NCBI GenBank assembly: GCA_016873215.1
Contig: VGXU01000024.1
Span: forward strand, 1-36,412
DNA from: Planctomycetota bacterium
GTDB taxonomy: Bacteria > Planctomycetota > Phycisphaerae > Sedimentisphaerales > Anaerohalosphaeraceae
Length of the DNA: 36,412 bases
Direction: 5' to 3'
Below the pieces are notes generated by a model. That model was not told the DNA's origin, made no database searches, and was given only the letters and a program-made list of their open reading frames with translations. Made by a program: the position numbers and the translations under genes. Within the stretch, counting starts at the first letter, position 1. The number at the start of each line of letters is the position of its first letter. Positions 10,292 through 19,514 of the stretch are shown in pieces.

Positions 10292-10367
10292 TCGGAGAGA
10301 CAGGATTTGAACCTGCGACCTCTGCGTCCCGAACGCAGCGCTCTAATCCAAGCTGAGCTACTCTCCG
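10292..10367 (-). tRNA. tRNA-Pro (anticodon CGG)
   Basis: The minus strand folds into a complete cloverleaf of 76 bases. The acceptor arms CGGAGAG and CTCTCCG are fully paired and the discriminator is A. The D arm is GCTC/GAGC with GG in the loop. The anticodon stem CTGCG/CGCAG encloses the loop TTCGGGA (anticodon CGG at 10329-10331), and the T arm GCAGG/CCTGT encloses TTCAAAT. It reads CCG proline codons. The CCA end is not encoded. Confidence 0.96.
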
Positions 10368-14763: not shown

Positions 14764-16308
14764 TTACCCGCCTTGCTGTGTCGGTTTGGTGTAAATGATT
14801 TTGTCGTCGCCGGGGGCGTAGAAATCCTTCACGACTGAGGCGATCGTATAGCCGATGCGTTCATAAAATGCACGCGTCGGCAGATAGCTGTCCCGGCCGG
14901 AGGTTTCGACGAAAAATAGCCTGCCGCCGGCGCTACGGATTTTTTCCTCGGCAAAATCCATCAGTTTTCGTCCCAGCCCCAGCCCCTGACATTTCGGCGT
15001 GACACCCAGCCAGTAAATATCGAAGCTGCCGACGGTACATGGTGTCGGTCCCCAGCAGACCCAGCCGATGACAGCCCCGCCGCGTTCCAATACGTACGAT
15101 TGATACGGTCCATCAGGACCATGCTTAATCGCGTCGGTAATGACTTCCTCGGCAACAAGCATCTCTTCGTGCCGGAAAAATTTCGTATCCTCAAGAAATT
15201 TCAACACCATGTGTACATCTTCCGGTTCGGCCAGGCGAATAACGTCTCCCGATGCGGCCGGTTTTCTATTTCTGATTTTTGATTCTTGATTTTTTATTTT
15301 AAATTTTTTCATTCTCGCCAGGGCGTTATCCAAAACAATTTTTACAAACTGATGGTATTGGATTCCGGCCGCATGGACTGCCGCGGCGACGCCATCCTGG
15401 GGGCAAAGGTCGGGATTGGCGTTGACTTCGAGAATGAGGGGGCGATTTTTTTTGTCCACGCGGAAATCGACCCTGCAATAATCGGTGCAGCCGACAGCAG
15501 CGGCGGCCTTTGCGGCAAGCATGGTCAATTGTTTAGCCAGCGCTATTGAGATTTTGGCCGGGACGACACGGGGCGTATTGTTAAATTCGAAACTGCCCGC
15601 TATCCATTTGGCCTCGTAGCCGATAATGCGGGGTTTGCCGGGCGGGAAAGCGGCAAAATCAATTTCGGCGACGGGCATGACGGCGGTTTTACCGTTTTTA
15701 TTCAAGACAGTGATATTAAATTCACGGCCGTCCACAAATTGCTCGACAATGGCTGTTTGTTTGAATTGCGTATGAACGCGACGGACGGCTTTATTCAGAG
15801 CGGCTCCCTGCGTTTTAATGATGGCGGCATCGTCAATGCCTTCGCTGCCGTCGGCGGCGACGGGCTTAACGATATATGGCCCGTTGAAATTCGGTCTGGC
15901 TCTTTGCCCCGGCTCGACCAGAAACGCCCGCGGTACTGGCAGAGCGGCGGCGGCCAGTACAGCCTTGCTTTGCCATTTATCCGTGGTCAGCATCAAACTC
16001 CGTGTATTGCAGCCCGTGCAGGCCTTCTCAAACGCTTTGCACAATGAAGGGACAAGTCCGGCTTTCATAGAAGAGCCTTCGAGGATTTCGACGAGATTAA
16101 ATATGGTCGTTTCCGGTGCACGGGACAGTACCTCGATTATTTCCTTTACCGAACCTATGGATTGAATACGATAGCGTAACCGCAGTTTTTTTAACGCCGC
16201 CGTGACAGCCTCGACCTCCTCAAGAACGCCGGCATCGCTTTCGGAGCAGCCGATCTGATTGAGGCTGCTGTCGGGACGATTGTAGAGAATAAGTAAAGTC
16301 TTCTTCAT
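14764..16308 (-). CDS. ATP-grasp ligase fused to a GNAT acetyltransferase
   Basis: This 514-residue protein starts at the ATG at 16308, which shares the ATGA overlap with the stop of the upstream ATP-grasp gene; the longer frame to 16497 lies inside that gene. Residues 1-330 are a D-Ala-D-Ala-ligase-like ATP-grasp fold (YIVKPVAADGSEGID phosphate loop, Asp281 in VDFRVD, Glu294/Asn296 in LEVNANPD as metal ligands). Such enzymes join a carboxylate to an amine through an acyl phosphate. Residues 355-514 are a GNAT domain with the acetyl-CoA loop CQGLGLGRKL (440-449). The linker (332-350, KKFKIKNQESKIRNRK) is lysine/asparagine-rich and looks like translated intergenic repeat. The substrate is unknown. 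Context beside a lysine aminomutase suggests an amino acid or its beta isomer (inference). Confidence 0.85.
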   Translation of the reverse strand: MKKTLLILYNRPDSSLNQIGCSESDAGVLEEVEAVTAALKKLRLRYRIQSIGSVKEIIEVLSRAPETTIFNLVEILEGSSMKAGLVPSLCKAFEKACTGCNTRSLMLTTDKWQSKAVLAAAALPVPRAFLVEPGQRARPNFNGPYIVKPVAADGSEGIDDAAIIKTQGAALNKAVRRVHTQFKQTAIVEQFVDGREFNITVLNKNGKTAVMPVAEIDFAAFPPGKPRIIGYEAKWIAGSFEFNNTPRVVPAKISIALAKQLTMLAAKAAAAVGCTDYCRVDFRVDKKNRPLILEVNANPDLCPQDGVAAAVHAAGIQYHQFVKIVLDNALARMKKFKIKNQESKIRNRKPAASGDVIRLAEPEDVHMVLKFLEDTKFFRHEEMLVAEEVITDAIKHGPDGPYQSYVLERGGAVIGWVCWGPTPCTVGSFDIYWLGVTPKCQGLGLGRKLMDFAEEKIRSAGGRLFFVETSGRDSYLPTRAFYERIGYTIASVVKDFYAPGDDKIIYTKPTQQGG

Positions 16309-17300
16309 AAATTTTCTCTCTCCAACGCGCTGGCTAAAATTTCGGACAGAAGCTGCGGGTAGCTCATGCCTTCCTGTGTGGCGATCATCGGCAGGTCGGA
16401 ATGGAGCGGGTGCAGGCCGGGCAGTGGGTTGATCTCGATGAACGAGGGGCTGCCGTTGGCGTCCATGCGGATATCGACGCGGGCGGTGTCGCAGCATTCA
16501 AGCGCACGATAACAGGCCAGGGCCAACTCTTCGACTTTTTGCCGGGTGCCGTCTTTGGGCATCGGGAAATAATGGACGAATTCTTCGCACAGTTCCTTGA
16601 CTTCATAGGAATAGTCCTGCGCGGGGGCGCCTTCCTTGACGCGAATTTCCATGGTGCCGAGGACGCGGGCTTTTGAGCCGGTGCCGAGAATGGCGGTGGT
16701 GGATTCCCGGCCGGGGAGATACTCTTCGACGAGGACGGGCTGATGAAACTGCTTGAGAAGTGCTTTGCAGACTTCGGCAAGCTGGGCGGGCGAGGTGATT
16801 TTGGAGCGGGCGTCCACGCCTTTGCCTGTTCCTTCGGCGACGGGTTTGGCGAAAAGCGGATAATTCAATTTTACATTGGCGATGTCCGCATCGAATTGCA
16901 CGAGATACGATTTTGGGGTATTGAGGCCGGCGTCGCGGATGATTTTTTTGGCCATTTCCTTATCGAGTGTCATCGCGCAGACCAGCGGGTCGGAAAAGGT
17001 ATAGGGAATATCGTAGAGTTCGAGAATGGCCGGGACCTGGGCCTCGCGGCTGCGGCCTTTAACGCCTTCGGCGATGGTGAAGACCAAATCCCACCGTTTG
17101 CCGGCGACGATTTGTTTTACGAGGGCTTTGGCGTTGCCGACACGGTCAACTTTGCAGCCCAGTTCGGTCAATCCCCGCGTGATGGATGAGATGGTGGATT
17201 CGGTGTCAAATTCGGCGACCTGCTCGGACGTAAAACCTTCTTTGAGATAGTCATCCCGCAGGTCATAGACGAAACCGATATTGAGATTATTAAAGTTCAT
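16305..17300 (-). CDS. D-alanine--D-alanine ligase-like ATP-grasp protein
   Basis: This 331-residue protein has the Ddl order: N-terminal Rossmann-like domain (to about 115, with VFTIAEGVKGRSREAQVPA and IPYTFSDPLVCAMTLDK), then an ATP-grasp domain (LFAKPVAEGTGKGVDA, VEEYLPGRE, metal ligands Asp276, Glu289 and Asn291 in IEINPLPGLHP). True Ddl proteins carry a closely related LPG signature, but the phrase here differs, and a second ATP-grasp gene overlaps its end by four bases (ATGA). I read it as a specialised amino-acid or peptide ligase, not the cell-wall Ddl (inference). The ATG at 17300 is chosen; a GTG at 17321 adds seven residues from a repeat-like leader. No ribosome binding site is evident for either start. 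Confidence 0.85.
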   Translation of the reverse strand: MNFNNLNIGFVYDLRDDYLKEGFTSEQVAEFDTESTISSITRGLTELGCKVDRVGNAKALVKQIVAGKRWDLVFTIAEGVKGRSREAQVPAILELYDIPYTFSDPLVCAMTLDKEMAKKIIRDAGLNTPKSYLVQFDADIANVKLNYPLFAKPVAEGTGKGVDARSKITSPAQLAEVCKALLKQFHQPVLVEEYLPGRESTTAILGTGSKARVLGTMEIRVKEGAPAQDYSYEVKELCEEFVHYFPMPKDGTRQKVEELALACYRALECCDTARVDIRMDANGSPSFIEINPLPGLHPLHSDLPMIATQEGMSYPQLLSEILASALERENL

Positions 17301-17364
17301 AGCTGATAGTTTATAGTTCACAGAGAAATAGACAAGGGGTTAAAGAGAAATTTCGGGAAAAAAC

Positions 17365-17403
17365 AAAAAAAAAGTCCACGGCCCGTCGAACAGGCCGTGG
17401 ACC
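17365..17403 (-). terminator. Rho-independent terminator of kamA
   Basis: A perfect 10-bp stem, GTCCACGGCC (17374-17383) and GGCCGTGGAC (17393-17402), has a nine-base loop. On the minus strand it is followed by nine T residues. It begins about 16 bases after the kamA stop and should largely separate kamA from the two ATP-grasp genes downstream. Confidence 0.93.
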
Positions 17404-17418
17404 AAAAATATTCATATT

Positions 17419-18798
17419 TTACTGGCCGAGCAGTTCATTGGATTCCACGTGGTGACAGCAGGTCTGTCGGCGGGTCTGGCGGATGGTTTTGGCCGGCTGA
17501 ATGTGGCTGTATTGTCCATTGGCCAAGGCCCATACGCCCGGCGCCGAATCGCGGCTCGGCTCCGCACTCGGTATGGGTGTATCGCGATGTGCCGGCTCGG
17601 GATAGGAAATCAGCATCCCTTCAAAGTTGCGGATGACCGTATGTGTCGGACTGGTGGAGACGATATAGCTCGGCAGGATGGGGATTTTGCCGCCGCCGTG
17701 AGGGGCGTCCACCACAAACGTCGGTATCGCAAGACCCGACACTCTGCCGCGGAGATATTCCATAATCTCGATACCCCGGCTGACCGGCGTGCGGAAATGC
17801 TCAATGCCGCGGACGAGGTCGCACTGGTAGAGATAATACGGGCGAACCCGCATTCGCACCAGCGCCCGGCAAAGCTGCTCATAGACCCTTGGGTCGTCAT
17901 TGACGTTGCGGAGCAGTACGGACTGATTGCCCAGCGGAATCCCGGCGTCGGCCAGCTTGCGGCAGGCCTCGGCGGATTCGGGCGTAATCTCGTTGGGGTG
18001 ATTAAAGTGCATATTGATCCACAGCGGATGATATTTTTTGAGCATATTGACCAGCGCGTCGGTAATCCGCATCGGCAGTACAACGGGCATCCGCGTCCCG
18101 ATGCGAATAATCTGCACCGAGGGGACTTTTCGCAGGGCCGAGAGAATCATCTCGAGCGCCTCGTCGCTCATGGTGAGCGGGTCTCCGCCGGAAACGATGA
18201 CGTCGGAAATTTCCGGATGCGCCGTCAGATAGGCCGTAACCTGTTCGAGCCGGCGTGCGGAAATGCTTGTTTCCCGTGTGCCCGCGACACGTTTGCGCGT
18301 GCAGTGGCGGCAATACATCGAGCAGGTCGTCGTCGCGATTAACAGCGCCCTGTCCGGATAGCGGTGCACCAGCCCCGCCACGGGCATATCGTCGTGTTCT
18401 TCGAGCGGGTCGCTGGACAAAAACGGCGGGTCGTACAGCTCATTAAGCTGCGGCACGCACATTTGAAACACCGGGTCGGCCATATCAACCTTGCGAATCA
18501 GTGAGGCATAATAGGGCGTAATGGCCATCGGGTATTTTGCGACGACGGGTTCGATGGACTGACAATAGGATTTGTCCGGGAAGTAGCCGAACAATTGATC
18601 GACGGAGCGGATTCGATGGCTCATCTGCCATCGCCAATCGCTCCATCGGTTATGGATTTGAATCAAAGGCTTGACATTTATTGCCGGGGCGACGGATAAA
18701 ACGGGGGGAGGTTCATCATCACTGCCAACCATAGATTGAGACGGAGGTTTGTCGGACGCAGCAGCATCGGCGGCTTCCATCTTGAACGACTGTACCAT
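17419..18798 (-). CDS. kamA: Lysine 2,3-aminomutase (radical SAM, PLP)
   Basis: This 459-residue enzyme should convert L-lysine to beta-lysine using a 4Fe-4S cluster, S-adenosylmethionine and PLP. The cluster ligands are Cys159, 163 and 166 (CSMYCRHC). With a constant offset of 34 from the clostridial enzyme, the carboxylate-binding Arg (R168), both acidic residues holding the lysine side-chain amine (D327 in YQCD, D364 in VVDAP) and the PLP lysine (K371 in GGGKIPILP) are all in place. That supports lysine as substrate. The position of the clostridial zinc ligand Cys268 is Asp302, and the C-terminal zinc cysteines are missing. Instead the protein ends in a Ser/Pro-rich tail with TCCHH. The first 40 residues are low complexity. 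The ATG has AAGGA about ten bases upstream. It lies 41 bases after the TetR gene, so the two are likely one transcript, ended by the terminator at 17365-17403. Confidence 0.93.
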   Translation of the reverse strand: MVQSFKMEAADAAASDKPPSQSMVGSDDEPPPVLSVAPAINVKPLIQIHNRWSDWRWQMSHRIRSVDQLFGYFPDKSYCQSIEPVVAKYPMAITPYYASLIRKVDMADPVFQMCVPQLNELYDPPFLSSDPLEEHDDMPVAGLVHRYPDRALLIATTTCSMYCRHCTRKRVAGTRETSISARRLEQVTAYLTAHPEISDVIVSGGDPLTMSDEALEMILSALRKVPSVQIIRIGTRMPVVLPMRITDALVNMLKKYHPLWINMHFNHPNEITPESAEACRKLADAGIPLGNQSVLLRNVNDDPRVYEQLCRALVRMRVRPYYLYQCDLVRGIEHFRTPVSRGIEIMEYLRGRVSGLAIPTFVVDAPHGGGKIPILPSYIVSTSPTHTVIRNFEGMLISYPEPAHRDTPIPSAEPSRDSAPGVWALANGQYSHIQPAKTIRQTRRQTCCHHVESNELLGQ

Positions 18799-18839
18799 CT
18801 TTTTGTTTCCTTAAAAGAGTTTCTCTCTCGGTTACATTT

Positions 18840-19478
18840 CTATCTGGCCAAAAACTTTGCCATACTGTCCACAAAGGCCTTTCGTACAGGCCGAAGACTT
18901 TCTTCAATTTCTTCTTTCGTCAGGCCGATCATCGCAAACGAAAAGAAGCCGAATACAAACCCGGCGATGGCACAACTCAGCCCGCGAATTTTCGTCGGCT
19001 GCATTCCGTCCGGGAGAAACGTCGCCATCTGCCGTTCGAGCGTTTCAAGATACCGCAGATACGGGGCTTCTATCTCTCCGGTCAAATCGCGGCCCAGTTT
19101 TATAAACATCCGTCCCTGAAAAAGCAATATATATTGCCGGGGATACTGTAAAAAAAAATTCACATGTTCATCAAAAAGCCGTTCGAGCCGGGTTTCGAAA
19201 CCGCCAGGCGTTTCCGCATCATCCGTAATCCGGACATTGAGTTTTTCTATCGCTTCTTCAATCAGGGCCTGCAGCAGGCTGCGTTTATCGGCGAAATGCC
19301 GGTAAAAGGTTCCTTTTCCGACATCCGCTCTTTCGGTTATCTTCTCAATCGACGCTGCATCGACACCTATTTCGGTAAAAACCGCCAATGCCGCGTCGAG
19401 CAATTTCATCCTTGTTTTACCAGCTCTTCGCTGTGCCCGCCCCATCGGCCAAAGCGTGTTTTTATCTACACCATTCAT
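18840..19478 (-). CDS. TetR-family transcriptional regulator
   Basis: This 212-residue ligand-responsive repressor has its N-terminal helix-turn-helix in the typical form: LLDAALAVFTEIGVDAAS, then IEKITERADVGKGTFYRHF (about 26-62), followed by KRSLLQALIEEA. The C-terminal helical domain would bind the inducer and dimerise; its ligand is unknown. Two GACT-N4-AGTC palindromes overlie the promoter immediately upstream, so autoregulation is likely. kamA follows after 41 bases and would share that control. The promoter places the transcript start within a few bases of the ATG at 19478, implying a leaderless message. A downstream ATG at 19445 (MGRAQRR) is an alternative start that still contains the whole DNA-binding domain. 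Confidence 0.93.
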   Translation of the reverse strand: MNGVDKNTLWPMGRAQRRAGKTRMKLLDAALAVFTEIGVDAASIEKITERADVGKGTFYRHFADKRSLLQALIEEAIEKLNVRITDDAETPGGFETRLERLFDEHVNFFLQYPRQYILLFQGRMFIKLGRDLTGEIEAPYLRYLETLERQMATFLPDGMQPTKIRGLSCAIAGFVFGFFSFAMIGLTKEEIEESLRPVRKAFVDSMAKFLAR

Positions 19479-19482
19479 AAGT

Positions 19483-19514
19483 GACTATATAGTCGCTATC
19501 GACTAAAAAGTCAA
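19483..19514 (-). promoter_or_regulatory. TetR-kamA promoter with two operators covering -35 and -10
   Basis: On the minus strand TTGACT (19514-19509) and TATATA (19491-19486) are 17 bases apart. The perfect palindrome GACTATATAGTC (19483-19494) covers the -10 box. A second site with the same half-sites, GACTAAAAAGTC (19501-19512), covers the -35 box. Their centres are 18 bases apart. Binding of the TetR protein at either site would block polymerase. Confidence 0.75.

Follow-up and report, generated by a model that had tools for sequence, protein, structure and literature searches.

A planctomycete locus joining a lysine 2,3-aminomutase to two ATP-grasp ligases and a GNAT domain: probably one copy of a widespread cassette for acetylated beta-lysyl peptides or amides

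Introduction

In the AblA/AblB system a lysine 2,3-aminomutase supplies beta-lysine and a GNAT enzyme acetylates it, making the osmolyte N-epsilon-acetyl-beta-lysine. A KamA-family enzyme likewise gives beta-lysine for an amide bond in the EpmA/EpmB system, and beta-lysylation of EF-P is established. The N-acetylglutaminylglutamine amide (NAGGN) cassette pairs a GNAT enzyme with an ATP-grasp enzyme to yield an acetylated small peptide, a compatible solute; it contains no aminomutase, its further members being an M42 peptidase and an amidotransferase of the asparagine-synthetase type. Here we analyze a locus at positions 14,764 to 19,514 of a 36,412-nucleotide stretch (the window) of Planctomycetota bacterium DNA, contig VGXU01000024.1, class Phycisphaerae. 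An earlier note on this DNA had read it as a TetR-controlled beta-lysine locus with two amino-acid ligases that the AblA/AblB route does not explain. All the genes it named are present on the minus strand, from right to left: tetR, kamA, ATP-grasp ligase 1, and a fusion of ATP-grasp ligase 2 to a GNAT domain. We consider it probable that these genes represent a widespread cassette, present here in one copy, that makes a small cytosolic acetylated beta-lysyl peptide or amide.

The cassette has the same beta-lysine supply and acetyltransferase type as AblA/AblB, but its KamA belongs to another clade, its GNAT has no AblB match, the sodium:solute symporter is missing, and two ATP-grasp ligases and often an amidohydrolase are added. 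Several relatives in the order encode a true AblA (780 bits; 779.6 unrounded) followed by the symporter and a true AblB (327-345 bits), in an operon separate from the cassette and with the different KamA clade; one genome, G030, holds both KamA types. The AblB model TIGR03827 gave no match at E ≤ 0.001 to the cassette GNAT of locus L051, and no score above its cut-off in the window's own genome, where the best was 26.8 bits. Unlike the NAGGN cassette, this one has neither the amidotransferase nor the M42 peptidase among the conserved neighbors found, NAGGN models not having been searched separately. It also differs from EpmA/EpmB, in that no EpmA-like synthetase is conserved with it and EpmB represents another KamA clade.

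Conserved linkage of kamA and the ligase genes

A set of 84,980 species genomes was searched with ligase 1 alone, and the 80 best loci, ranked by ligase 1 similarity, were examined. One search pattern contained an Asp that is invariant in ligase 1 (D309), while a second admitted divergent loci too. The loci come from Planctomycetota, Lentisphaerota, Bacteroidota, Pseudomonadota, Thermodesulfobacteriota, Myxococcota, Acidobacteriota, Chloroflexota, Spirochaetota and Sumerlaeota. KamA is encoded directly upstream of ligase 1 on the same strand in 72 of the 80, and is adjacent in 69 of the 75 that have at least 1.5 kb of upstream DNA; in L058 and L073 a deacetylase gene fills that DNA to the contig end, and leaving these aside the count is 69 of 73. 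Ligase 2 follows in 57 of the 67 loci with room for it and GNAT in 48 of 59. The order kamA-ligase 1-ligase 2-GNAT is conserved in about ten phyla, with ligase 1, rather than GNAT, the most constant partner of KamA. This linkage is far beyond chance. It had been named beforehand as the key test, and of the two outcomes that would have spoken against a shared pathway (no conserved linkage, or a ligase pair found widely without kamA and with an unrelated role) neither was seen. The arrangement has variants: in L219 (genome G338) a tandem pair of ligase-1-like genes comes after KamA, and in L220 (genome G489) the order is ligase 1, ligase 2, GNAT, with KamA last.

Co-occurrence was then considered at the level of whole genomes. 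Among Desulfovibrionaceae, ligase 1 is found in 34 of 149 genomes (about a quarter), and KamA is adjacent in all 30 retrieved loci. Among Planctomycetota, 69 of 392 genomes match ligase 1 at E ≤ 1e-60, and 20 of the 30 loci retrieved have KamA within 1.5 kb. The presence of ligase 1 is predictive of KamA also when the genes are distant from each other in the genome: of 35 planctomycete ligase-1 genomes, selected as cases in which a neighboring KamA was lacking or still to be checked, 34 encode a KamA of at least 320 bits, versus 1 of 60 ligase-1-negative genomes (Fisher p about 2e-23, not corrected for kinship). Twelve such distant KamAs were read in context, and neither AblB nor the symporter stood beside any. 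In 59 close relatives, cassette-type KamA is present in 22/22 genomes with ligase 1 and absent from 36/37 of the others, the sole exception being a genome whose contig stops right after the deacetylase gene.

Across 39 loci, sequence divergences taken pair by pair correlate among KamA, the two ligases and GNAT (Mantel r 0.68-0.86, reaching 0.81-0.86 among KamA and the two ligases; 0 of 2000 permutations as high), a correlation of which vertical descent by itself could yield part. The ligase-1 tree mixes phyla in places, requiring 17 label changes against a minimum of 9, so some joint transfer of the cassette genes is likely. Together, linkage, co-occurrence and correlated distances strongly support the earlier suggestion that kamA, both ligases and GNAT form one pathway beyond AblA/AblB. 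TetR and the deacetylase gene described below are the only further same-strand families with a conserved place next to the cassette, and among the neighbors of the loci no transporter, resistance or secretion gene is conserved. Carriage on plasmids was considered and dropped: four rhizobial plasmids carry only a distant ATP-grasp (32-35% identical), and the two plasmid regions examined show no annotated aminomutase.

Lysine specificity and the N-terminal tail of KamA

The window KamA (17419..18798, minus strand; 459 aa) is a radical SAM enzyme dependent on pyridoxal 5'-phosphate (PLP), whose closest solved relative is the clostridial lysine 2,3-aminomutase, PDB 2a5h (E=1.5e-135). Comparison with that structure confirmed what had been claimed of its lysine-binding residues: R134 (carboxylate-binding), D293 and D330 (the lysine-specific aspartates), K337 (the PLP lysine) and the CxxxCxxC cysteines are all kept, in 2a5h numbering. 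D293, D330 and K337 are kept in 71/71 cassette KamAs, and R134 is kept in the window and its cassette relatives as well. Conversion of lysine to beta-lysine by this enzyme is near certain. It scores below the cut-offs of both equivalog models that were compared, AblA (TIGR03820, 513.4 bits; cut-off 525.4) and EpmB (TIGR03821, 249.5 bits; cut-off 369.3).

Cassette KamAs bear a low-complexity N-terminal tail of 30-100 residues. A motif, [DE]PP[SGPDL], occurs in 61 of 69 such tails (2.6 expected from shuffles), with related forms in most of the remainder. It can also be written [DE]xPP[SGD], and it spans phyla while the rest of the tail is unconserved (window; L053-L131, L147-L176). In the window it reads DDEPPP, at residues 27-32 of an unstructured extension (18703..18720, minus strand). 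The motif is absent from the canonical enzyme 2a5h and from AblA of order relatives. We guess at a docking role for it. At a bacteroidal locus (L103:5761-6219), a KamA N-terminal tail with EEPPS remains ahead of a GNAT-amidohydrolase gene, where the catalytic core of KamA seems to be gone.

Two ligases of Ddl fold with altered pockets

Ligase 1 (16305..17321, minus strand; 338 aa) and the ligase 2 domain (15274..16308, minus strand) both match PF07478 and have the Ddl fold in AlphaFold models, with a predicted local distance difference test score of 92 for ligase 1 and 93 for the whole ligase 2-GNAT protein. Foldseek gives Ddl 8evz as the best match of ligase 1 and Ddl structures as the best of ligase 2. 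The start codon of ligase 2 overlaps the ligase 1 stop (ATGA); the longest open reading frame has its first ATG at 16497, and homology together with the ATGA overlap places the true start at 16308.

Both ligases resemble the D-Ala-D-Ala ligase/VanA family in fold and in ATP/Mg machinery, with equivalents of K97, K144, E187, K215, R255, D257, E270 and N272 kept almost without exception, so both should be active. The substrate pockets differ from that family. Two residues of the Ddl active-site triad are replaced: at the position of S150, ligase 1 has T and ligase 2 has A or G, and at that of Y216, ligase 1 mostly has E and ligase 2 always has W. Ligase 1 keeps S281, and has the invariant Asp, D309, at the position of L282; as noted, one search pattern contained this residue. 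D309 is a plausible partner for a second amine group of the acceptor, such as lysine or beta-lysine would have. Scores of the ligases against NCBIfam Ddl subfamily and equivalog models all lie below cut-off. On contig C3 of the window genome, a MurB-like frame is closely followed by a further gene of Ddl type, separate from these two. Both ligases very likely form amides, and beta-lysine is likely to be a ligase substrate because the co-occurrence of KamA and ligase is near-obligate.

The acetyltransferase and an optional amidohydrolase

The 514-aa fusion protein (14764..16308, minus strand) ends in a GNAT domain (14764..15261; PF13508/PF00583) whose nearest solved relative is PDB 2r7h (130 bits, E=1e-36), deposited as 'Putative D-alanine N-acetyltransferase of GNAT family'. 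That protein presumably comes from Desulfovibrio; a tested function for it was not found. Between ligase 2 and GNAT lies a low-complexity linker, KKFKIKNQESKIRNRKPAAS (15250..15309, minus strand), which looks like intergenic simple sequence that has come to be read through. The description of two coupled ATP-grasp ligases, the second carrying a fused GNAT, holds for the window; the fusion itself is confined to some Phycisphaerae lineages, and in other relatives the two are often separate genes.

An additional gene, missed in the earlier note because the window genome is without it, occurs in 18 of the 80 loci. It encodes a fusion of about 590 aa, GNAT plus a class II deacetylase (Hist_deacetyl; PF00850, 252 bits), and in several Phycisphaerae, G001 and G002 of the same genus among them, it separates kamA from ligase 1. 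The best PDB match of the deacetylase part is an acetylpolyamine amidohydrolase (256 bits), a type of enzyme that acts on small acetylated amines. Its zinc and catalytic motifs PGHH, GFD and EGGY are present in 18/18 sequences and D.D.HHG.G in 17/18. In the window the gap between kamA and ligase 1 holds only a hairpin, so the gene has probably been lost there. Acetylation by GNAT and deacetylation by the amidohydrolase are likely assignments in kind.

Other candidates for these parts were rejected. By analogy with the NAGGN cassette, the gene of about 590 aa separating kamA from ligase 1 might have been an asparagine synthetase; it is GNAT-Hist_deacetyl instead. The GNAT part of that fusion is not taken for AblB, the apparent AblB match of the window genome lying in a different protein. 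A histone-deacetylase-type gene on contig C1 of the same genome, examined as a displaced cassette member, has an acetyl-CoA-hydrolase-like gene next to it and is not fused to a GNAT, and therefore looks AcuC-like. There (L145:5371-8407) the acetyl-CoA-hydrolase-like protein, which has a GNAT-like stretch, adjoins the AcuC-like deacetylase, and the pair stands behind an acyl-CoA-synthetase-like gene; this group is possibly a protein-acetylation switch.

Regulation and other features of the window

The tetR gene (18840..19478, minus strand; 212 aa, PF00440 E=1.7e-15) is separated by 41 bases from downstream kamA. Upstream of it lies a probable promoter/operator of the TetR-kamA transcript (19483..19514, minus strand), read from the sequence as TTGACT-17-TATATA with overlapping palindromes GTCG-ATAG-CGAC and GACTATATAGTC. 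This region is almost unchanged in the same-genus relative G002, where the block TTGACNNNTTNGTCGATAGCGACTATATAGTCA is kept upstream of tetR. It is probably a self-regulated TetR promoter, with the palindromes as putative TetR sites. The tetR start codon comes only 7 bases past the -10 box (19479-19514), so the transcript may be leaderless. TetR precedes kamA in most complete Phycisphaerae cassettes (39-75% identical). The regulator gene is there as had been noted; TetR control is lineage-specific. In one related genus (L040-L043) the cassette tetR faces a U32-peptidase gene and murC-murB-ddl, probably a local coincidence. Some ablA genes are preceded by Na+ riboswitches (PMC9337991). Riboswitch control was dropped for the cassette, as an Rfam search of the window and 14 loci gave no match near it. 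Elsewhere in the window, a tRNA gene (10292-10367, minus strand; Rfam 63 bits) lies near the end of a priA-like gene.

Proposed pathway and alternatives

We infer the product, step order, second substrate, acetylation site and physiological role as follows. KamA would convert L-lysine to beta-lysine; the two Ddl-fold ATP-grasp enzymes, with their redesigned pockets, would spend ATP to build beta-lysine into one or two amide bonds; and GNAT would acetylate an amine left free on beta-lysine or on the conjugate. The product would be a small acetylated beta-lysyl di- or tripeptide or amide, likely cytosolic, given that the conserved neighbors include neither a transporter nor a secretion gene. In some genomes the GNAT-amidohydrolase would probably remove acetyl groups, for turnover or to deprotect an intermediate. 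That neither transporter nor resistance genes are conserved also leads us to guess at a compatible solute or stress metabolite. A bolder version, which we put forward tentatively and with some doubt, is that beta-lysyl oligopeptides or amides with reversible acetylation form an undescribed metabolite class, made in many phyla by a probably transferable cassette in which the [DE]xPP[SGD] tail of KamA docks to the ligases and channels beta-lysine.

Several points weigh against this pathway. The cassette is known from genes and sequences, and sequence does not predict the substrate of GNAT. The 80 loci are a selection by ligase 1 similarity, and four with enough upstream DNA (L068, L103, L107, L123) have ligase 1 and no adjacent KamA; in some planctomycete families KamA lies elsewhere in the genome. 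Some loci carry ligase 1 without a recognizable ligase 2 or GNAT nearby, so these two may be replaceable or unlinked. Shared ancestry inflates both the Fisher and the Mantel figures.

Among other explanations, the cassette could be a variant of AblA/AblB that makes N-epsilon-acetyl-beta-lysine, with its GNAT replacing AblB and the ligases accessory. A lysine-type KamA with a GNAT does follow that logic, but we think this unlikely given that true AblA/AblB and the symporter form their own operon, that G030 carries both KamA types, that the window KamA falls below the AblA cut-off and the L051 GNAT lacks an AblB match, and that ligase 1 rather than GNAT is the most constant partner of KamA. It is quite unlikely that the ligases make a beta-lysine peptide for peptidoglycan or its cross-bridge, a role that their Ddl fold and the adjoining murC-murB-ddl genes might suggest: the mur neighborhood is limited to one genus, the MurB-like frame of the window genome has a Ddl-type gene of its own nearby, and the conserved neighbors of the cassette include no Mur, Fem or export gene.

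Attachment of beta-lysine or acetyl-beta-lysine to a protein, in the manner of EpmA/EpmB and with the KamA motif as docking or target peptide, would give that conserved motif a role and has the precedent of EF-P. We rate it improbable all the same, as the conserved neighbors include neither an EpmA-like synthetase nor a target protein, EpmB-like KamAs form a clade of their own (36-40% identical) with another distribution, and ligases of Ddl fold typically act on free small substrates. Finally, the ligases and kamA might be unrelated genes that happen to be neighbors, split by a terminator. The window does have a strong intrinsic-terminator-like hairpin between kamA and ligase 1 (17373..17403, minus strand; 14-pair stem and T-run), from which independence of the ligases had been suggested. 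The hairpin is real, but among 61 relatives in which ligase 1 adjoins kamA just one has a counterpart in the gap, so it makes no argument for independence; with it absent from the other 60, and given that the genes are linked across about ten phyla, co-occur and diverge in a correlated way, the chance reading is already refuted.

Implications

Full-text searches of 5.4 million open papers turned up no paper that combines these enzymes, so novelty is provisional. A 2009 amidoligase survey by Iyer and colleagues reportedly covers ATP-grasp neighborhoods and may contain an earlier mention. No NCBIfam model treats the ligases as families of their own, so automatic annotation likely calls them D-alanine ligases beside a 'lysine 2,3-aminomutase', labels that make it easy to misassign the genes to the synthesis of osmolytes or of the cell wall. 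The cassette amounts to a second beta-lysine economy, present in about ten phyla, in many Planctomycetota and in about a quarter of sampled Desulfovibrionaceae, in which beta-lysine is evidently passed to dedicated ligases. Cultured Desulfovibrio relatives should carry it, making the product accessible, and the cassette points to a widespread small molecule, undescribed in the literature searched.

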